Of a stretch of DNA of 23,497 nucleotides, positions 1-11,022 are shown in pieces. Origin of the DNA: a virus; IMG/VR virus record IMGVR_UViG_3300043466_000493, positions 1 to 23,497 of that record; one strand, written 5' to 3'. The notes beneath the pieces are model-generated. The model saw only the letters and a program-made list of their open reading frames with translations. It had not been told where the DNA came from and did not search any database. The translations under genes were made by a program, and so were the position numbers. Each line of letters opens with the position of its first letter. Position 1 is the stretch's first letter.

Positions 1-2112
1 CATATAACGTAATAATGGATATCTATTTAAAATTGTTTGCACTTTAGTTTCTGCCGCCAACTGGAATTCCTTTAATTCTTTATAGATATTATCGTTGGAA
101 TATATATTCGCCAACATCATATAGGAATTAATTGAACCTGGTTTGTTGTTTTTCGAATTATTTGTTATATTGAATTCTTGAACAACTTTCTTGAATGGAG
201 AATTATCATTCAATTTATCCAATATATTTTTATTATACTTGAATTTATTGATGCAGTCAATATTCAAATCTGCATAAATTCGATTCTTAATGGATTCTTT
301 TTCGGATTGTAATTTATCGATAATAACACGTTCAATATTTATCCAATTTGGATAATTCGAAAGTGATTCAATATCCCCTTTTCTGATTCCATAAATAGTC
401 ATACGTGAACCAATCGGTCCAAAAAAACCACATTCTTTCAATAATTTATAGACTCCTTTAAAGTCAGTAGTGTAATTTGAAATAACATTATACCCAGAAA
501 GAGGAATATAATACATGGTATTCGTCGTGTTATTTAGATCTTGTAATTTACCACATTCTTTCCAAGTATAATTTGGATTGTAATATTTTCTATTATCTTC
601 TTGTATTTTAACAACTGTTACATCTTTGGTTCTCTTTTTCTTTTCCAATTCCGGAAGGGTAGAAACATTTATGATAATATCATCTGGTGGATTACTTATT
701 GACTTGAAGAATTCTTCAAGATTCATATCTTTATCTTTATCGATTTTCTGTAAAAGGATAAATTTCTTTATCTTGTGTCCTGTTTCTAGATTATCGATAT
801 ATCGTTTACATCTTTCTCCAGCACCAATAGTCGTATCATTAATAATGAACTTGTATTTTGAACATGTTTGATACATATTAATGCCAGAGTTATTTAGATC
901 ATATCTTCTAGTTCTTCCAGAATACGAATCCTTTTCGAAAGAATTAATTGAAATATTGAATTCAGAACACTTTTCTCGCGAAATAGAAATTACATTGTAA
1001 TAGATTTCATGTAAATTATTGTATTTGTTAATTGCGACAACATTTAAGTTATTATTATTTACATATTCTGTCACAGTCATCTTCCAAATAGGAAGAGAAT
1101 TTTTATTAACTAAGAAATCTGCAAGAAACCAAGAATTATGATTGTGTTGTTTAGCTTGTTCATCTAGAATACAGTACAATGAATCACTTAACTTTTGAAG
1201 TTTATTCTTGATTGAAGAAATAGTCAACGGAGTGTAAGCCAAACCTTCTCGAGAAGCTTGGAAATCTAATTCTCCAATATTGAATTCCATTACAAGATTA
1301 TTGGATAGTAAAGAATGCAGTTTATCCGTTAAATTCGTTTTTGCGTTTGGAACATCAATAGGATAACAGATATTTCCCATCAGAGCTTTACTAGTACCAT
1401 AACCTCTTGTAGATAATACATGAATTCCTGGTATGATATTCTGTTCTTCGTAATTCTTTTCTCTTTTAACGACGTAATCGAAAGATAATGTATACTCTCT
1501 ATTACCGGAGATATTTGGTTGTGTCTCGAACCAGATAAATACGTTAGGAGCTTCTGTGACAAACTTAACGATATCGTCTTGGTTATCTACTGAAAATTTA
1601 ATCTCAACGCCGTTCGGTTCTGTCGTATCAGAAACTCCCATAGACGCAATGGAAGGGATGCCATGTTCATTCACGAACGCACTAAAAATCCAACACTTAC
1701 CGTTCTTAATCGTAGTGATGCTGAAGTTTTCAGTATAACTGAATGGTGATTTGGAACCAAGTCCAAGTGCACCAACGAATTCATTCGAATGCGTTTTCGT
1801 TGATTCGAAATAAGTTGTATAGATAGATTTCACTTGTGTGTCATCTAGACCAGTTCCATAATCACGAATAGAGAACCATGGTTCAATACGATTAGGAAGG
1901 TGTACGTCAAACGGAATATCCTTCTTTCCTGCTGCCACATGCGAATCATAAGCATTACAAGAAAGTTCTCGAATAATCGCTTTAATCTTATTTGCATATA
2001 AACCAGAACTTAAAATCGAGAATGCTTTCGAAGAATTCTTGATTTTAAATTCATCTGTTCTATCAATAGAAGAAAGAACAACATTATTATCAGGAGAATG
2101 TGAAATAATCAT
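1..2112 (-). CDS. rIIA: RIIA-like protein, GHKL ATPase (3' end cut by window edge)
   Basis: The frame is open from ATG 2112 to the window edge, giving 704 codons with no stop; T4 RIIA is about 725 aa, so only a short C-terminus is missing. The N-terminal 130 residues show a GHKL ATP-binding fold: an N-box RELSCNAYDS near residues 48-57, a G1 box DYGTG at 84-88 and a G2 box GALGLGSKSP at 114-123. This order and spacing match phage RIIA rather than a histidine kinase, since there is no H-box, receiver domain or membrane segment. In T4, RIIA with RIIB gives membrane-associated protection against RexAB exclusion; the exact biochemical role is unresolved. An AAGG ribosome site lies 9 nt upstream of the ATG. 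No rIIB is visible; it may lie beyond the left edge. Confidence 0.85.
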   Translation of the reverse strand, partial: MIISHSPDNNVVLSSIDRTDEFKIKNSSKAFSILSSGLYANKIKAIIRELSCNAYDSHVAAGKKDIPFDVHLPNRIEPWFSIRDYGTGLDDTQVKSIYTTYFESTKTHSNEFVGALGLGSKSPFSYTENFSITTIKNGKCWIFSAFVNEHGIPSIASMGVSDTTEPNGVEIKFSVDNQDDIVKFVTEAPNVFIWFETQPNISGNREYTLSFDYVVKREKNYEEQNIIPGIHVLSTRGYGTSKALMGNICYPIDVPNAKTNLTDKLHSLLSNNLVMEFNIGELDFQASREGLAYTPLTISSIKNKLQKLSDSLYCILDEQAKQHNHNSWFLADFLVNKNSLPIWKMTVTEYVNNNNLNVVAINKYNNLHEIYYNVISISREKCSEFNISINSFEKDSYSGRTRRYDLNNSGINMYQTCSKYKFIINDTTIGAGERCKRYIDNLETGHKIKKFILLQKIDKDKDMNLEEFFKSISNPPDDIIINVSTLPELEKKKRTKDVTVVKIQEDNRKYYNPNYTWKECGKLQDLNNTTNTMYYIPLSGYNVISNYTTDFKGVYKLLKECGFFGPIGSRMTIYGIRKGDIESLSNYPNWINIERVIIDKLQSEKESIKNRIYADLNIDCINKFKYNKNILDKLNDNSPFKKVVQEFNITNNSKNNKPGSINSYMMLANIYSNDNIYKELKEFQLAAETKVQTILNRYPLLRYM

Positions 2113-2154: not shown

Positions 2155-2190
2155 TCAAATAATTCTTTTGTAAATTGATTTCTTTATCAT
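2155..2190 (-). pseudogene. Truncated last copy of the hexamer-array gene (MIKKSIYKRII-stop)
   Basis: The copy of the repeat spacer nearest rIIA still encodes the N-terminal module MIKKSIYKRII but is followed directly by TGA instead of a hexamer array, leaving 11 codons. It is best read as the truncated terminal member of the tandem family upstream of it (2195-2856). Its 45-bp spacer is identical to the preceding copy. Confidence 0.45.
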
Positions 2191-2194
2191 ATTT

Positions 2195-2419
2195 TTAGTT
2201 AGACCCAGACCTAGACCCAGACCTAGACCTAGACCAAGACCCAGACTCAGACCCAGACCAAGACCAAGACCCAGACCCAGACCAAGACCTAGACCCAGAC
2301 CAAGACTCAGACCAAGACCAAGACCAAGACCAAGACCCAGACTCAGACCAAGACCTAGACCCAGACTCAGACCCAGACCTAGACCAAATAATTCTTTTGT
2401 AAATTGATTTCTTTATCAT
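2195..2419 (-). CDS. Repeat-array small ORF, copy 1 (Ser-X repeat, 74 aa)
   Basis: It begins at the ATG inside the conserved spacer with MIKKSIYKRI, then runs as Ser alternating with Gly, Arg, Trp or Glu, and ends Ser-Asn-stop. No known family is recognised. Support for coding is indirect: every spacer copy supplies an in-frame start, and a degenerate upstream relative keeps the same frame. Against it, a hexamer repeat is automatically open in several frames, and there is no Shine-Dalgarno site; the upstream stop is only 4 nt before the ATG, so any translation would rely on coupling. Arrays are whole multiples of six bases, so length changes in the array would preserve this frame. Confidence 0.4.
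   Translation of the reverse strand: MIKKSIYKRIIWSRSGSESGSRSWSESGSWSWSWSWSESWSGSRSWSGSGSWSWSGSESGSWSRSRSGSRSGSN
2201..2386. repeat. Hexamer array 1 (31 units of AGACNN)
   Basis: It consists of exactly 31 uninterrupted 6-bp units on the plus strand: AGACCC x10, AGACCA x11, AGACCT x6, AGACTC x4. AGACCG is absent. The minus strand is G-rich (GGGTCT, AGGTCT, TGGTCT, GAGTCT). The order of variants is irregular. Confidence 0.97.
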
Positions 2420-2429
2420 ATTTTTAGTT
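2387..2429. repeat. Conserved spacer between hexamer arrays 1 and 2
   Basis: This is a copy of a roughly 45-bp AT-rich spacer that recurs beside each array: about 2156-2200, 2385-2429, about 2632-2676 and, truncated, 2825-2855. The first two copies are identical. The third differs only at the array junction (AATATTTC for AATAATTC). The fourth shares that junction but diverges at its other end. On the minus strand it carries a stop, then ATG and a Lys/Ile-rich N-terminus. Confidence 0.9.
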
Positions 2430-2666
2430 AGACCCAGACCTAAACCTAAACCTAGACCTAGACCCAGACCTAAACCTAGACCTAGACCTAGACCCAGACC
2501 CAGACCTAGACCAAGACTCAGACCAAGACCTAGACCAAGACCCAGACTCAGACCTAGACTCAGACCCAGACCAAGACCAAGACTCAGACCTAGACTCAGA
2601 CCCAGACCTAGACCCAGACCTAGACCAAGACCCAATATTTCTTTTGTAAATTGATTTCTTTATCAT
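2424..2666 (-). CDS. Repeat-array small ORF, copy 2 (Ser-X repeat, 80 aa)
   Basis: It has the same architecture as the flanking copies: the module MIKKSIYKRNIG from the conserved spacer, then an alternating Ser-X tract with X = Arg, Trp, Gly or Glu, then Ser-Asn-stop. It is the longest copy (34 hexamers). It alone carries three AAACCT hexamers (plus strand), which introduce Phe in place of Ser near its C-terminus. Function is unknown; the composition is low-complexity, with Arg and Trp against Glu. The stop lies 4 nt before the start of the next copy. Expression is unproven. Confidence 0.4.
   Translation of the reverse strand: MIKKSIYKRNIGSWSRSGSRSGSESRSESWSWSGSESRSESGSWSRSWSESWSRSGSGSRSRSRFRSGSRSRFRFRSGSN
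2430..2633. repeat. Hexamer array 2 (34 units)
   Basis: It consists of exactly 34 uninterrupted units on the plus strand: AGACCC x9, AGACCT x11, AGACCA x6, AGACTC x5, AAACCT x3. The AAACCT variant occurs only here, at units 3, 4 and 8. Confidence 0.97.
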
Positions 2667-2670
2667 ATTT

Positions 2671-2856
2671 TTAGTTAGACCTAGACCAAGACCAAGACCC
2701 AGACCCAGACCCAGACCTAGACTCAGACCTAGACCTAGACTCAGACCTAGACCTAGACTCAGACCAAGACCCAGACCAAGACCCAGACCAAGACCAAGAC
2801 CTAGACCCAGACCAAGACCTAGACCCAATATTTCTTTTGTAAATTGATTTCTTCAT
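2671..2856 (-). CDS. Repeat-array small ORF, copy 3 (Ser-X repeat, 61 aa)
   Basis: It starts MKKSIYKRNIG and continues as a Ser-X tract (X = Arg, Trp, Gly, Glu) ending Ser-Asn-stop. Relative to the other spacers, two substitutions remove the usual ATG and create a new one a single codon later, so a start is kept in frame. Its ATG overlaps the stop of the upstream ORF (2853-2960) as ATGA, the usual arrangement of translationally coupled genes. These two points are the best evidence that this strand and frame encode protein. No homologous family is recognised. Confidence 0.45.
   Translation of the reverse strand: MKKSIYKRNIGSRSWSGSRSWSWSGSWSGSWSESRSRSESRSRSESRSGSGSGSWSWSRSN
2677..2826. repeat. 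Hexamer array 3 (25 units)
   Basis: It consists of exactly 25 uninterrupted units on the plus strand: AGACCC x7, AGACCT x8, AGACCA x7, AGACTC x3. Units 4-6 are three consecutive AGACCC, giving three GGG runs on the minus strand separated by TCT, a spacing compatible with G-quadruplex formation. Confidence 0.97.
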
Positions 2857-2960
2857 GATGTAGGAGTCCAAGTTGCTACCGACCAACCAGATGAATTAGA
2901 ACCAGATCTAGATGCAATATTTTTACAAGTTCTCTTGTAAACATATTTTTCATAGAACAA
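2853..2960 (-). CDS. Short ORF, apparent non-expanded relative of the repeat genes (35 aa)
   Basis: It reads from TTG 2960 as MFYEKYVYKR, then NIASRSGSNSSGW and a unique tail VATWTPTS before TGA. YKR, NI and S-R-S-G-S align in frame with the repeat ORFs downstream, but the hexamer periodicity is imperfect, so it resembles an ancestral or decayed copy. The stop overlaps the next ATG (ATGA). There is no good ribosome site, and the start is uncertain: an ATG at 2953 is in another frame, and the frame is open back to a stop at 2979. It sits just after the terminator of the upstream gene. Confidence 0.35.
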   Translation of the reverse strand: MFYEKYVYKRTCKNIASRSGSNSSGWSVATWTPTS

Positions 2961-2967
2961 ATAAAAG

Positions 2968-2992
2968 GATGGGGGATTTTAAATCCCCCATC
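2968..2992 (-). terminator. Rho-independent terminator of the small gene at 2995-3261
   Basis: A near-perfect inverted repeat (stem GATGGGGGAT with ATCCCCCATC, loop TTTAA) starts 2 nt after the stop codon on the minus strand. It is followed by the T-rich CTTTTATTTGTT. The hairpin is symmetric, but only the minus side has both a gene end and T-rich sequence. Confidence 0.8.
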
Positions 2993-2994
2993 AC

Positions 2995-3261
2995 TTAACC
3001 CTTCTTGCCGATGCCGAAAGACTCAATCGCAGAAGTCTGGATATACCAAGACTTGGTAGGAAGACTCTGAGCGTCCTTGTACTTCGCATCGCTGAACGGA
3101 CCAGTCTCATAAACAATCTTCGCATCGTCTAGAAGGACACATGTATCGTTCACTCCAGTGAGTGTACCAGCATAGATGTAGTTCGCACAGAACAACATCA
3201 CATGCTCACCTAGAAGGGCAACCAAACCTTCGCCCTGTACTTCTGTAAGAATCTTCTTCAT
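2995..3261 (-). CDS. Small conserved phage protein, possible Sm-like fold
   Basis: This is an 88-aa protein. Around residues 16-52 it reads as a short beta-barrel pattern: LLGEHVMLFCANYIYAG, then TGVNDTCVLLDDA, similar in layout to the Sm1 strand region of Hfq/LSm proteins. It then has a conserved-looking tail around YKDAQ and SWYIQTSAIESFG. I recall this type as a small hypothetical found in diverse phages and bacteria; a function is not established, and the Sm reading is inference. It has a strong AAGGAG ribosome site 8 nt before ATG, its own sigma70-like promoter (3282-3310) and a terminator, so it is a monocistronic unit. Its GC content is visibly higher than its neighbours, suggesting separate acquisition or strong expression. 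Confidence 0.75.
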   Translation of the reverse strand: MKKILTEVQGEGLVALLGEHVMLFCANYIYAGTLTGVNDTCVLLDDAKIVYETGPFSDAKYKDAQSLPTKSWYIQTSAIESFGIGKKG

Positions 3262-4001: not shown

Positions 4002-4030
4002 TTGCTTTCTGATTCTATATTTAGTATAAT
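4002..4030 (+). promoter_or_regulatory. Sigma70-type promoter for the NAMPT-like gene
   Basis: TTGCTT (4002-4007), 17 bp, TATAAT (4025-4030). Start is expected near 4037, just before the AGAAAGG ribosome site. This argues that the gene begins at ATG 4050 and not at an upstream in-frame TTG at 4002. Confidence 0.75.
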
Positions 4031-4049
4031 GAATAAAGAAAGGTTAATT

Positions 4050-5525
4050 ATGAACACCATCCCAGTTCTCTTAGCAGACTTCTACAAGATTGATCACGTT
4101 CGCCAATATCCAGAAGGAGTGACACGAGTCTACTCAAATTGGACTGCACGAAAATCTCGTGTCCCTGGTATTGAAAAAATTGTTGTTTTTGGACACCAGT
4201 ATTTTCTACTTGATCTTCTGAAGGAATTCGATAATAGCTTTTTCTCTGTGCCTTGGATCGAAGTAGAAGCAGAATATGTCCGTGTAATCTCTAAAACTCT
4301 TGGAATTCAGAATCCCAAAACAGACCACATCAAGGCACTTCATGATGAAGGACGTCTTCCTATTAACATCTACGCAATTCCGGAAGGATATTCGGTTAAT
4401 ATTGGAATTCCATCTCTTGTCATTTACAATACAGTCGACCACGCTTTCTGGCTTCCTAATTTCCTAGAAACGATTCTTTCTCTATCTATTTGGAAACCAT
4501 ACACTTCGGCAACGACTGCTCTTGAATATCGTAAGATTGGTATGGAATGGGCACGAAAAGCAGGAGAGACTGATTTTGGTTTCATCGATTATCAATTCCA
4601 CGATTTCTCCATGCGTGGTATGTCGTCTCTAGGTGATGCAGTAGCTTCTGGTATGGGTCACCTTCTATCGTTCAATGGAACTGATACTATCCCTGCTATT
4701 CTAGCAGCTGAGCATTATTATGATGCAAACATTGCTACGACAGGTTCTTCTGTTCCTGCTACAGAGCACTCTGTTATGTGTGCTGGTGGTAAAGAAGACG
4801 AATTTGAAACTTTCCGTCGTCTAGTTGAAGATATCTATCCAGAAGGAATCGTTTCGATCGTTTCTGATACTTGGGATCTGTGGACTGTTCTAACAGACTT
4901 CATGCCTCGTTTGAAAGATAAAATCATTGCTCGTAACGGTAAGATTGTTATTCGTCCTGATTCCGGTGATCCTGTTGAGATTGTACTAGGCAAGAATAAT
5001 TCTAGCATTCAAGAACGAGGTAATGGACCAGCTGATCTTGGTGTCTTGGCTCTTCTGAAAGAAGTTTTTGGTTTGGATCATAATCGTATGATCAACAAAG
5101 CAGGTTGTATCTATGGTGATTCGATTACGTTGGATCGTGCACGCCAGATTCTATCTGGCATCGTTGAGAAATTGAAGATCTCACCATATAATATGGTGTT
5201 TGGTGTCGGGTCATATACTTATGAGTATGTCACAAGAGACACTTTCGGATTCGCAATGAAGGCGACTGCTATCGAAAAAGATGGAAAAATCATTCCTATC
5301 TTTAAGGATCCAAAGACTGATTCTGGAATGAAGAAATCTCGTAAAGGTATTCTTGCTGTCTACAAGGCTCCAGATTGGACTCCGGAAAATAACAACTGGA
5401 TTTGTAAGGAAGAAGCGACTCTCGAAGAACTTGAAAATTGCGACTTGACTTGCATCTTGAAAGACGGTATACTGAATAAAGTGAAGTTTGAAACCATTAA
5501 GGAGCGTGTTCGTGTCCAATCGTAA
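4050..5525 (+). CDS. nadV: Nicotinamide phosphoribosyltransferase-like (NAMPT/NadV or Namat)
   Basis: At 491 aa it matches the usual NAMPT length. NAMPT joins nicotinamide to PRPP to make NMN. Family motifs are in order: an N-terminal DFYKIDHVRQYPEG with SNWTARKSR, a central FHDFSMRGMSS near residue 184, FNGTDTIPA near 208, PATEHSVMCAGGKEDEFE holding the phosphorylatable catalytic His at about residue 240, VSDTWDLW near 272, and the substrate-binding IVIRPDSGDP near 299. The start is chosen from promoter and AAAGG placement. It overlaps the next gene, a PRPP-synthetase-like enzyme, by 14 bp. That pairing fits NAD salvage, or alternatively the phage NARP1 pathway, in which a NAMPT homologue uses ADPR-pyrophosphate. 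The sequence alone does not separate the two. Confidence 0.93.
   Translation: MNTIPVLLADFYKIDHVRQYPEGVTRVYSNWTARKSRVPGIEKIVVFGHQYFLLDLLKEFDNSFFSVPWIEVEAEYVRVISKTLGIQNPKTDHIKALHDEGRLPINIYAIPEGYSVNIGIPSLVIYNTVDHAFWLPNFLETILSLSIWKPYTSATTALEYRKIGMEWARKAGETDFGFIDYQFHDFSMRGMSSLGDAVASGMGHLLSFNGTDTIPAILAAEHYYDANIATTGSSVPATEHSVMCAGGKEDEFETFRRLVEDIYPEGIVSIVSDTWDLWTVLTDFMPRLKDKIIARNGKIVIRPDSGDPVEIVLGKNNSSIQERGNGPADLGVLALLKEVFGLDHNRMINKAGCIYGDSITLDRARQILSGIVEKLKISPYNMVFGVGSYTYEYVTRDTFGFAMKATAIEKDGKIIPIFKDPKTDSGMKKSRKGILAVYKAPDWTPENNNWICKEEATLEELENCDLTCILKDGILNKVKFETIKERVRVQS
5445..5473 (+). promoter_or_regulatory. Internal sigma70-type promoter for the prs-like gene
   Basis: TTGACT (5445-5450), 17 bp, TATACT (5468-5473), lying inside the 3' end of the NAMPT-like gene. 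Both hexamers and the final GG of the spacer match the promoter at 6874-6902. Confidence 0.7.
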
Positions 5526-6372
5526 TGTATTGCGTATCGACGAAAATTCGTACGAGTGGTTTAAGTATCCAGGAGGCGAACTTCAGGTTCGCCTCAAACC
5601 CGAAACTATCAAAGCATTGACTTCGTGTTTTGGTGTTGTCTTAATTCATCGAATTAAGAATTCCGATGATGTAATGAAGTTGCTTCTGTTGCAAGATGCA
5701 ATCAACGATATTACTTTGTCTATGCCATCCAATAATATTGCTGTTGTGATTCCTTATCTTCCATATTCAAGAGCCGATCGTCGCTTCGTAGAAGGAGATT
5801 GTCTCGGTAAGAAAGTTTTCTTGAATATCATTACCTGCGTCTGGCCATATGCAAAAATCTATACTTTAGATTGTCATTCTAACAGGTTTGATTATGAGTA
5901 TAAAGATATTCCGATTAATAAGATTATTCAAGAAATTCTTGTAACTGATCCTGAAGCAAATATTATCTTTCCGGATGAAGGTGCGAAGAATAGATATGCT
6001 GATATGCTTTCCGATAATCATCCGAAATATTACTGCAAAAAGAAACGTGATCCTGTTACTGGCAGATTTCTTGGTTTCGAAGTTCCAGCAATCAAAGACA
6101 CGACACGAAATTCTTATATCATCGACGATATCTGTGATGGTGGTGGAACTTTCTTGGGTATTGCTGAAAAGTTGCAGATCCCAAATCTTCGGTTGTTTGT
6201 GACACACGGAATCTTCTCGAAAGGATTCGATGATCTATCGAAATACTTTGATAAGATCTACACAACAAATTCTTTCACAGAGTCTGGTATTTCTGATAAT
6301 GTCGAAGTTATTGACGTTATTGATTGGATGGCTGAAATTGCGAAAGAAGAATTGGATAGTTTATATGTTTAA
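5512..6372 (+). CDS. prs: Ribose-phosphate pyrophosphokinase-like (Prs or ADPR-PP synthetase)
   Basis: This 286-aa enzyme is somewhat shorter than bacterial Prs (about 315 aa). It transfers pyrophosphate from ATP to the C1 hydroxyl of a ribose phosphate. Visible motifs: YLPYSRADRRF near residues 82-92 (ATP-binding region, cf. YARQDR), LDCHSNRFDYEYKDIP near 119-134, and the PRPP loop IIDDICDGGGT at 203-213. The loop KKKRDPVTGRFLGFE near 177-190 corresponds to the catalytic flexible loop and differs from the usual KRR-type loop. Start GTG 5512 is chosen because AAGGAG lies 7 nt upstream. It overlaps the NAMPT-like gene by 14 bp and has its own internal promoter. In NARP1 phages the homologue (Adps) acts on ADP-ribose, which is a live alternative here. 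Confidence 0.88.
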   Translation: MSNRNVLRIDENSYEWFKYPGGELQVRLKPETIKALTSCFGVVLIHRIKNSDDVMKLLLLQDAINDITLSMPSNNIAVVIPYLPYSRADRRFVEGDCLGKKVFLNIITCVWPYAKIYTLDCHSNRFDYEYKDIPINKIIQEILVTDPEANIIFPDEGAKNRYADMLSDNHPKYYCKKKRDPVTGRFLGFEVPAIKDTTRNSYIIDDICDGGGTFLGIAEKLQIPNLRLFVTHGIFSKGFDDLSKYFDKIYTTNSFTESGISDNVEVIDVIDWMAEIAKEELDSLYV

Positions 6373-6868
6373 TGTAATCAAACCTCCAACTAAGTTGACT
6401 GCAAAGCACCTTGAAAATATCACCATCTTTCTTGGTGGATCTATTGAGATGGGTATCGCTGATAATTGGCAAGACCGTGTAATCCAACATCTATCTCTTC
6501 ATGAAGATGTTGTTGTTATGAATCCCCGTCGTGATGACTGGGATTCATCCTGGAGGCAGCATCCGGATGATCCAAGATTTCACGAACAAGTGATGTGGGA
6601 ATTGCGGTGTCAAGAAAATTCAGATATTAACTGTTATTATTTTGATCCGAATACTAAATCTCCTATTACTCTATTGGAACTTGGAATATTTGGAAGTAGA
6701 TCTGGCCGAAAGGTAATCGTTTATTGTACAGAAAATTTCTGGAGATATGGTAATGTCAAAATCGTGTGTGATTTTCTGAATATTAAGATCGTCGATAATT
6801 GGTTCGAATTCTTGAAAGAGATTGACGACTCGATCTACCGAACAAAATTAAAATATTTTAATTTTTGA
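6365..6868 (+). CDS. Nucleoside 2-deoxyribosyltransferase-like protein
   Basis: The 167-aa protein has the features of the phage/bacterial 2-deoxyribosyltransferase-like family (PF15891 type). A Rossmann-like start IFLGGSIEMG lies at 21-30, followed by DNWQ. NPRRDDWD is at 53-60. QVMWEL is at 75-80, and SPITLLELG at 99-107 holds the probable catalytic Glu105. ATG 6365 overlaps the prs stop by 8 bp, so the genes are co-translated. Family members cleave N-glycosidic bonds of deoxynucleosides or related nucleotides; in this setting it could process nicotinamide or nucleotide intermediates or salvage bases. The substrate cannot be told from sequence. Confidence 0.8.
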   Translation: MFNVIKPPTKLTAKHLENITIFLGGSIEMGIADNWQDRVIQHLSLHEDVVVMNPRRDDWDSSWRQHPDDPRFHEQVMWELRCQENSDINCYYFDPNTKSPITLLELGIFGSRSGRKVIVYCTENFWRYGNVKIVCDFLNIKIVDNWFEFLKEIDDSIYRTKLKYFNF

Positions 6869-6908: not shown

Positions 6909-7328
6909 ATGGAATCTGAGCTGAAGATCTCTAGAGTCTTTTCTCTCCTCAAACAAATAGCGATAGCTAATCCGAAAGTTTCTGGCGCTAAACTTGCTGC
7001 CGCTATTGTTTACAAAAACAAGATAGTTTCGGTTGGAGTAAATTCTATGAAATCATCTCCACTCCAAGCTAAATATGCAACAAACAAAGATCTGTCTATC
7101 TATCTACACGCAGAGATATCTGCAATTAAGAATGCATTGAGACAAATAGATGTAGAAGATTTCAAGAAAGTTAGTCTATATGTTTGTCGTGTTAAGTATG
7201 ATATTTTGACTAATAGTATAGTCTATGGGTTGGCGAAACCTTGTTCTGGTTGTATGCGGGCAATATTTGAATTTGATATCAAGAAAGTATATTATACTCT
7301 TGAAACAGAAGGTTGGGATCAATTGTGA
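6909..7328 (+). CDS. Zinc-dependent cytidine/dCMP-type deaminase
   Basis: This 139-aa protein has the CDA-fold zinc signature: HAE at residues 67-69 (zinc ligand His and catalytic Glu) and PCSGC at 111-115 (Cys112 and Cys115 as ligands). The N-terminus GAKLAAAIVYKNKIVSVGVNS fits the deaminase first strands. Length and a single domain fit a nucleoside or nucleotide deaminase; T4 Cd is larger (about 190 aa) with an extra zinc site, so this is not a close copy of it. There is no ribosome site before ATG 6909, and the promoter spacing predicts a leaderless transcript. Its stop overlaps the next start (GTGA). Confidence 0.85.
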   Translation: MESELKISRVFSLLKQIAIANPKVSGAKLAAAIVYKNKIVSVGVNSMKSSPLQAKYATNKDLSIYLHAEISAIKNALRQIDVEDFKKVSLYVCRVKYDILTNSIVYGLAKPCSGCMRAIFEFDIKKVYYTLETEGWDQL

Positions 7329-8239
7329 TTTATCCTGGATATTGTTGCATTAATCTTACTCTCCAGAAATCATTAGGACTTACTTCTAATAGAACCATGC
7401 GCAAAGATACATTCCTCACAAAAGGAATAGATTATGCGTCGGATCTTATTGTTCAGAACGTGTCAGATCTACTCAGGATTGTAGATTGGAATGGCCAGAA
7501 TAAGATTAAGAATTTCCGCATGTCTTCCGAGATGTTTCCTTGGGCTTCAGAATATGTATTCGAAGATCTTCCTGATTGGTCGAAAATTAAAAGCATCCTA
7601 CAAGATATTGGGTCTTTGGCAAAATATTATGATATGAGATTATCATTTCATCCTGGTCCATTTGTTAAGTTGGGATCGATGAAAGAGAATGTTGTTCTAA
7701 ATTCGATCAAAGATTTAGAGATTCACAATTCTATCATGAATCATATGGGTCTTGAGGCCAGTGAATTTTATCCAATTAATATCCATGTTGGAATGTCTTA
7801 TTCCGAAGAGACTTCCGATCGATTCTGTGCAAACTTTGGAAGATTATCTGATAGTATGAAGAAGAGACTTGTTGTGGAGAATGATGATAAACAATCGTCA
7901 TATTCTACATCTCATCTATTCTTGGATATTCACTCGAAGATTGGAATTCCTCTGACGTTTGACTTCTTCCATCATTCGTTATATAATGGTAATGAATATG
8001 AATTAACTGAAGAAGAAGCATTCGATATGGCTTTCTCTACTTGGAAAGAGGTTCCTCTATTCCATTATTCAGAATCAAAAGCGATTCATGAAGGAATTGT
8101 ATGTAATCGAACTGCTCACTCTGATTATATTAATTCGCTTCCTGATGATTATGGAAAAGATTTCTATCTTGATCTAGAAACAAAAGCAAAAGATTTGGCT
8201 CTAATGAAAATTCTTAAGGAGAGTAATTATGCTAGTTAA
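7325..8239 (+). CDS. uvdE: UV damage endonuclease (UvdE/UVDE family)
   Basis: At 304 aa it falls in the usual UvdE catalytic size range. UvdE nicks DNA 5' to UV photoproducts and some abasic sites, starting an alternative excision repair. Metal-site motifs of the TIM-barrel fold are visible: IYPGYCCINLTL at the N-terminus, LSFHPGPFVKLGS near 104-116, NIHVGMSYSEE near 154, LVVENDDK near 183, PLTFDFFHHS near 215, and LFHYSES. GTG 7325 overlaps the preceding stop (GTGA); the ribosome site AGAAGG lies about 12 nt upstream. An in-frame TTG at 7313 is a less likely start. It is probably co-expressed with the deaminase. Confidence 0.88.
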   Translation: MIYPGYCCINLTLQKSLGLTSNRTMRKDTFLTKGIDYASDLIVQNVSDLLRIVDWNGQNKIKNFRMSSEMFPWASEYVFEDLPDWSKIKSILQDIGSLAKYYDMRLSFHPGPFVKLGSMKENVVLNSIKDLEIHNSIMNHMGLEASEFYPINIHVGMSYSEETSDRFCANFGRLSDSMKKRLVVENDDKQSSYSTSHLFLDIHSKIGIPLTFDFFHHSLYNGNEYELTEEEAFDMAFSTWKEVPLFHYSESKAIHEGIVCNRTAHSDYINSLPDDYGKDFYLDLETKAKDLALMKILKESNYAS

Positions 8240-10212: not shown

Positions 10213-11022
10213 CTATTTATTAATTTTAGGAATTCTACCAGGAAAGAATCCAGATGGAGGATTGTTAGGATGGATCCTAATTTGTTCTAAGGTAATGGGA
10301 TTATGGAACCATTTCTTTCCATAACTAGGATTATTTTCACCACTCTTGGCAGCAGACAGCTTCTTTAGTGTTTCTTCTGAACGATTACTATGCGTCTCTT
10401 TCATCTTCTGAATTGATTCTGGAGAATGTGTCTTTCCATAAAGAGGATGCTTTTCACCCTTTCTCATATCAGATAATTTCTTCTTAGTTTCATCAGAAGC
10501 AACAATACCAATATGATTTAAAGACATTTTTCGTTTAGATTCTTCAGAATGTTTCTTACCTGTATTTGCCAATGCAATTTTTCTTTTATGTTCTTCAGAC
10601 TTAGGAATTCCTTTATATTTTCCTTTTCTATTCTCAGACATCTTTCTTCTTGTTTCTTCTGAATGATTCTTACCGTGTAGGGGATTATCTTTTCCATTTA
10701 GAGCACGACCAAAATAACCATTTGTCACAGCCAATGATTCATTGAAATACATTGGTGATTTAACTACAGATAATTTTATTTGAAAGAACAATTCTTTCTC
10801 ATAAGCTTCTTCTCTGGTTTCATGTGTTGTAAGTATTTTTGTTTTGAATAGGTGAGGATTAGATATTAATTCTTGTTTATAGATATCTTTATATTTCTTA
10901 GAAGACACGGTTCCATGATAACCTTTGTTAATTCTATTAACAGAAGTTGAACCAATATAATATAGAGGGAGTTTGTTACCTTTGTAGATTGTAAGGTATG
11001 TACAATAAATATTATTAGGCAT
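10213..11022 (-). CDS. GIY-YIG homing endonuclease with NUMOD3 repeats
   Basis: The 269-aa free-standing endonuclease resembles the Seg family of T4. The GIY-YIG core is at the N-terminus: YCTYLTIY near 6-13, YYIGSTS near 21-27, an Arg at about 30, and ETREEAYEKEL near 89. From about 113 onward there are tandem NUMOD3-like DNA-binding modules, each with NPLHGK or a related turn plus HSEETRRKMSE-type helices, about five in all. It lies immediately downstream of the major capsid gene and its terminator, a classic place for such genes, and not inside an intron. The start ATG 11022 has AAGGA 10 nt upstream. Confidence 0.92.
   Translation of the reverse strand: MPNNIYCTYLTIYKGNKLPLYYIGSTSVNRINKGYHGTVSSKKYKDIYKQELISNPHLFKTKILTTHETREEAYEKELFFQIKLSVVKSPMYFNESLAVTNGYFGRALNGKDNPLHGKNHSEETRRKMSENRKGKYKGIPKSEEHKRKIALANTGKKHSEESKRKMSLNHIGIVASDETKKKLSDMRKGEKHPLYGKTHSPESIQKMKETHSNRSEETLKKLSAAKSGENNPSYGKKWFHNPITLEQIRIHPNNPPSGFFPGRIPKINK
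10214..10221 (-). promoter_or_regulatory. Late-type promoter octamer AATAAATA
   Basis: One mismatch from the T4 late consensus TATAAATA, 14 bp before the start codon of the 85-aa gene. That spacing to the ATG is close, so initiation would give a very short leader. Confidence 0.4.

Follow-up and report, generated by a model that had tools for sequence, protein, structure and literature searches.

The window, the whole stretch of 23,497 nucleotides that was analysed, is to judge by its sequence a contig of a T4-like phage, with a capsid protein that shares 63% identity with its counterpart in Pelagibacter phage HTVC008M and 61.5% with the one in Methylophilales phage Melnitz. An rIIA-like gene (1..2112, minus strand, extending beyond the window) lies 3' of three tandem genes on the same strand, here called S-X repeat genes, whose products consist of a short head of about 10-12 aa followed by serine in alternation with a variable residue X. 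Gene 1 (2671..2856; array 2677-2826) encodes 61 aa as MKKSIYKRNIG-(SX)n-SN-stop, gene 2 (2424..2666; array 2430-2633) encodes 80 aa as MIKKSIYKRNIG-(SX)n-SN-stop, and gene 3 (2195..2419; array 2201-2386) encodes 74 aa as MIKKSIYKRIIW-(SX)n-SN-stop. The head consensus in the window is MIKKSIYKR(N/I)I(W/G), X is W, G, R or E, and every full unit has an ATG, the conserved head, an open frame and a stop. A fourth head without an array (2155..2190, minus strand), 11 aa reading MIKKSIYKRII and then TGA where the others have TGG, is the last of the tandemly duplicated units, in truncated form. At the other end, the ATG of gene 1 overlaps, as ATGA, the TGA of a 35-aa ORF with a TTG start (2853..2960, minus strand; LFYEKYVYKRTCKNIASRSGSNSSGWSVATWTPTS), which resembles a remnant or a diverged relative and has no family match in PHROG or Pfam. 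A terminator-like hairpin of 11 pairs on the minus strand (2968..2992), found by consensus scan only, lies between these genes and the gene at 2995-3261.

The initial annotation had described the region as an unexplained DNA element in which hexamer arrays alternate with a conserved spacer. Direct counting reproduces its 31, 34 and 25 whole, uninterrupted hexamers (genes 3, 2 and 1, respectively) and its pooled variant numbers (AGACCC 26, AGACCT 25, AGACCA 24, AGACTC 12, AAACCT 3 and AGACCG 0), and the tandem-repeat analysis that it proposed detects the region, with Tandem Repeats Finder scores of 328-377. The spacers at 2387-2429 and 2634-2676 measure 43 bp and not the 45 bp reported. A gradient among spacer copies is present as described: the two nearest rIIA are identical, and the third departs from them at the junction with its array. 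The fourth copy (about 2827-2860) marks the start of the first gene and has no array upstream, which accounts for its divergence. The idea of a DNA element with a spacer does not survive. On the minus strand the spacer reads TAA-AAAT-ATG, which joins gene 2 to gene 1, and continues into a head 10-11 codons long; it comprises a stop codon, a start codon and a gene's N-terminal head, with the array forming the gene body. The array reads as a series of TCT-NNG codon pairs, in which AGACCC stands for Gly-Ser, AGACCT for Arg-Ser, AGACCA for Trp-Ser, AGACTC for Glu-Ser and AAACCT for Arg-Phe. As for the extent first given to the feature (2155-2960), the arrays stand and 2857-2960 does not, as it holds the short upstream ORF and no array.

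Could the array be an assembly artefact, as had been considered? This is unlikely, because the same array is found in two assemblies from other samples. It is repeated letter for letter in IMG/VR contigs 3300002835_005179 and 3300042309_000358, where the flanking sequence matches the window at 99.7% identity over 14.3 kb and at 99.5% over 8.3 kb, respectively. A separate observation concerns window positions 6670-6795, where about 40 differences from 3300002835_005179 and a 9-base indel cluster against a background of near identity, as a short recombination tract.

A search with the head sequence found a second S-X locus within this phage group; it lies downstream of DNA polymerase, flanked by genes for a UvsX-like recombinase and a DnaB-like helicase. 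At this locus, strains with flanks 99.0-99.5% identical (99.5% over 14.3 kb) differ in the length and order of their arrays, and the gene products are of 68 and 49 aa, of 68 and 55 aa, or a single one of 67 aa. In more distant phages, as many as six genes sharing this head are found within 6 kb. The proposal that whole units were duplicated and that arrays changed internally is borne out here, since comparison of the second-locus strains reveals hexamers gained, lost or replaced; at the level of sequence, both tandem duplication and array turnover in six-base units are demonstrated. Directly downstream of the second locus lies a less regular ORF rich in Ser, Trp and Gly, perhaps an older relative (L004, from 6805 onward, MIHKLRKKSEYIYWTRLFSGSWSGIGNSRRSGSWSWSG...; also in L003, L005, L007 and L008).

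How widespread is the design? Scans for relatives, with no fixed positions other than Ser codons TCN plus Trp in one pattern and TCT plus a final G in another, found it at no fewer than 111 viral loci with at least 190 ORFs, in environmental phage sequences and with many unrelated heads. The figure of about 110 loci is a lower bound, counted among the matches listed (120 per scan), and sequence collections mask or filter low complexity. Recurrent head types are MIRGKKQKW, MKSFKQKYRS, MNxAxLRxGFD and MIILKANEW, and tandem runs reach 13 genes in L041 and 7 in L069. Pattern controls gave 13 of 60 loci for threonine (a complete scan) and 19 of 120 for alanine (among the matches listed), mostly simple repeats, compared with 57 of 91 new loci for serine. 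The alanine control scan also turned up (A-[G/R/W])n arrays at L437, L452 and L469, with alanine instead of serine.

A bacterial origin of the gene was considered and rejected. Among 120 TCTNGG matches listed in GTDB genomes, only two (L272 and L302, both labelled Patescibacteria MAGs) carry S-X genes, and a third match (L320) is a chance-like short stretch. L302 may itself be a phage contig, because an endonuclease VII-like HNH gene lies nearby. Among cultured relatives, the array is absent from seven phage records, including those of HTVC008M and Melnitz, and a gene of this kind was found in no cultured phage. Searches of INPHARED with tblastn and blastn, both of which apply filters that mask such sequence, gave no useful match. 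The S-X proteins have no match in PHROG or Pfam (E <= 0.001 or curated level) and no credible match in NCBIfam, and no publication on them was found in the open-access literature. They thus form a gene class without a family match in the libraries searched, and the class was probably overlooked because low-complexity filters mask such sequence.

Which frame of the repeat is read? In the window alone the answer could mislead, because its most variable base is silent in an alternative (LG)n frame. The dominant serine codon is TCT at 61 loci, TCG at 41, TCA at 8 and TCC at 1, each locus being nearly pure. With these codons the product of the alternative frame shifts from LG to RG, H/Q-G or PG, whereas the S-X frame stays constant. 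Because the serine codon differs between loci, only the S-X frame gives the same protein at all of them, and coding in the (LG)n frame was rejected. Arginine is likewise encoded by either AGG or CGG at a given locus, the minor codon making up at most 10% in 85 of 102 loci, and the choice tracks GC content (rho 0.66). A striking DNA repeat can therefore be coding, with its frame visible only when unrelated loci are compared.

The X positions point in the same direction. Across loci X is W in 30.6%, R in 30.1% and G in 27.5% of cases, with a dispersion only 1.31 times multinomial. Where X is encoded by NAG, the codon is GAG 51 times, CAG 36 times and AAG 22 times, and TAG is absent (0 of 109), although T comes first in 36% of NGG codons and about 60 TAG codons would be expected if T were equally common in NAG. 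In this count, two flanking units were required on each side and ORF ends were ignored; the sequences are related, so that the counts are non-independent, yet a count of zero carries weight. The minor-allele fraction within arrays reaches 0.56 at the first X position and 0.11 at the second, as against 0.024 and 0.041 at the synonymous third positions of Ser and Gly. Such low synonymous variation beside varied X codons suggests that the arrays arose recently or have been homogenised, and that either selection or the reshuffling of a small set of unit types maintains the mixture at X. Among 52 tandem successors, 15 have an ATGA overlap with the preceding gene; short gaps also couple tandem copies. 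The locus-specific Ser and Arg codons, the near 1:1:1 ratio of W:R:G and the lack of TAG argue for translation and for selection at the protein level, and it is nearly certain from this codon evidence that the S-X repeats are translated genes. The initial annotation had allowed that related phages might share an identical order of variants through selection on one coding frame. Selection on one frame is upheld; a conserved order is not, as it differs between the second-locus strains.

The predicted proteins are small and unusual in composition. Among 157 complete S-X proteins, in which head and repeat make up the whole protein, the median length is 66 aa, with most between 46 and 91 aa. Ser accounts for 40% of residues, Arg for 14%, Trp for 13% and Gly for 12%, with Asp at 0.4%. 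The net charge is positive in all 157 (median +10), and the pI is about 12. The order of X within arrays is near random, with few modest departures.

The genes found next to S-X loci vary among phages and include those for DNA polymerase, a UvsX-like recombinase, replicative helicase, a Sak4-like annealing protein, DNA methyltransferases, GTP cyclohydrolase and, once, an endolysin. In L023 (2511-6240) and L028 (5617-9553), about a dozen small genes, S-X genes among them, each stand behind TTGACA-N14-TGN-TAnnAT, a strong sigma70 promoter of the extended -10 type, with the ATG mostly exactly six bases past the -10 box. It is likely that these genes give rise to early mRNAs from one promoter per gene, and the mRNAs are perhaps leaderless. 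The second locus of the window phage has a comparable arrangement, TTGACT-17-TATAAT-6-ATG, and its position between uvsX and the DnaB-like helicase gene likewise fits an early gene. A consensus scan found no such promoter at the window operon itself, and over all loci the mean promoter score is near that of shuffled sequence, strong sites coming mostly from one group. The case for early promoters, as read from sequence, thus applies to one group of relatives and to the second locus of the window phage.

What might such proteins do? In composition, the S-X proteins combine arginine and aromatic residues, candidate stickers, with Ser and Gly as candidate spacers. Tentatively, and on the basis of composition, the product may be an early, cationic sticker-and-spacer protein that binds nucleic acid, perhaps by condensation; this is the reading preferred here, at somewhat less than even confidence. 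It would be a non-essential protein of the host-takeover type that acts through its bulk composition and needs no fold. In a strongly basic chain, Trp and Arg would be the sticky residues, spaced by Ser and Gly; the chain would bind RNA, DNA or ribosomes and either form condensates or coat the nucleic acid. In what order the X residues come would be of little consequence as long as W, R and G remain nearly equal. Recombination between near-identical heads or arrays would add and remove gene copies, and slippage or unequal exchange would reshuffle the arrays; with two codons to a unit, such reshuffling always leaves the frame intact. A broader proposal is more doubtful: that these proteins are a widespread, undescribed class of early, composition-only Ser-[Trp/Arg/Gly] polymers, arisen several times from different serine codons, condensing with host nucleic acid or ribosomes and kept as many tandem variants per genome. 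If the S-X proteins approximate a minimal sticker-and-spacer polymer of natural origin, function by composition might be put to the test in phages.

It is improbable, though worth weighing, that the products are membrane-active. Trp-Arg peptides are a known antimicrobial type, and short proteins rich in Trp and Arg with a net charge of +10 might act on the host membrane by permeabilising or depolarising it, either to lyse the cell or to exclude other phages. The S-X genes of L099 are near an endolysin gene, and the window copies adjoin rIIA, a lysis-control gene in T4. However, serine makes up half of the array, the sequences read show neither a signal peptide nor a hydrophobic stretch, the identified neighbours are mostly genes of DNA metabolism, and many tandem copies are atypical of lysis genes.

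The chance is similarly small that the proteins fold or assemble as beta strands, with a serine face and a Trp/Arg/Gly face, into silk-like or amyloid-like sheets or fibres in the cell or the virion. The strict alternation of residues would favour such strands. AlphaFold2, run without an alignment on the 80-aa protein, gave one three-strand model of pLDDT 74, with strands at 7-20, 26-38 and 44-56 and blocks at about 90, but the other four models reached only 53-59. For one relative, also modelled without an alignment, two strands were predicted at a pLDDT of 54. A Foldseek search found no match at E <= 0.001, and the near-random order of X and the many glycines also speak against a regular sheet.

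A third unlikely alternative accepts translation and holds that the arrays persist as fast-changing variants, comparable to contingency loci, in which new orders of X or new lengths are favoured, for example as decoys against a host recognition system. The differences between strains with 99.5% identical flanks, the excess of non-synonymous over synonymous variety and the 13 tandem paralogues of L041 are in line with this. By contrast, the narrow dispersion around equal W, R and G suggests that composition is favoured over novelty, and the array at the rIIA locus is identical in three assemblies. Finally, a function of the repeat as DNA or RNA (a recombination hotspot, an origin, or a regulatory or sponge RNA) with an incidental open frame is very improbable and largely refuted by the codon evidence: the (LG)n frame is also open in TCT loci and repeats can recombine, but unrelated loci alter the DNA in both Ser and Arg codons while keeping the protein, TAG is missing, and start, head, stop and ATGA coupling are all in place.

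For the preferred reading as a cationic sticker-and-spacer protein, there is a likeness in composition to phase-separating domains of the FUS type, in which Arg and aromatic stickers are set among Ser/Gly spacers. The S-X proteins are much shorter and share no homology with these domains. The RS domains of eukaryotic SR proteins resemble them in Ser-Arg alternation, basic charge and low complexity. In contrast to SR proteins, S-X proteins have Trp and Gly as commonly as Arg, have no RNA-recognition motif (no Pfam domain was found) and belong to prokaryotic hosts.

The tandem DNA repeats behind the SD repeats of staphylococcal Sdr and Clf proteins gain and lose units without frameshift (PMC3324548). 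SD and S-X repeats both alternate serine with one other residue; however, SD repeats are acidic stalks in large secreted surface proteins, whereas S-X proteins are small, stand-alone, basic phage proteins with W, R or G at the position held by Asp in the SD-repeat MSCRAMM adhesins. The signal peptide, ligand-binding domain and LPXTG anchor of MSCRAMMs are missing from S-X proteins. NCBIfam hits to serine-aspartate adhesins and similar families are compositional only and far below cut-off, at 14-19 bits for SdrC/ClfA against cut-offs of 999-2500. Archaeal Borg elements also contain fast-evolving in-frame tandem repeats, under strong protein-level selection and of independent origins (PMC9879509). 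Both are found in mobile elements, but the units of Borg repeats are identical in amino-acid sequence and occur in many different proteins, whereas the S-X repeat is nearly the whole protein, has mixed X residues and is common to many phages. A survey of low-complexity regions in prokaryotes and phages found 116 of them in 51 of 102 phage proteomes, with aromatic residues and arginine heavily under-represented (PMC6821194); in S-X proteins, Trp and Arg together fill about 60% of X positions.

Elsewhere in the window, gene names read from translations place a nicotinamide phosphoribosyltransferase-like gene beside a ribose-phosphate pyrophosphokinase-like gene, an NAD salvage pair, followed by a UV damage endonuclease-like gene (4002-6372 and 7313-8239). 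A homing endonuclease-like ORF of the GIY-YIG/NUMOD type, recognised by its repeated motifs only, adjoins the major capsid gene at 10213-11022.
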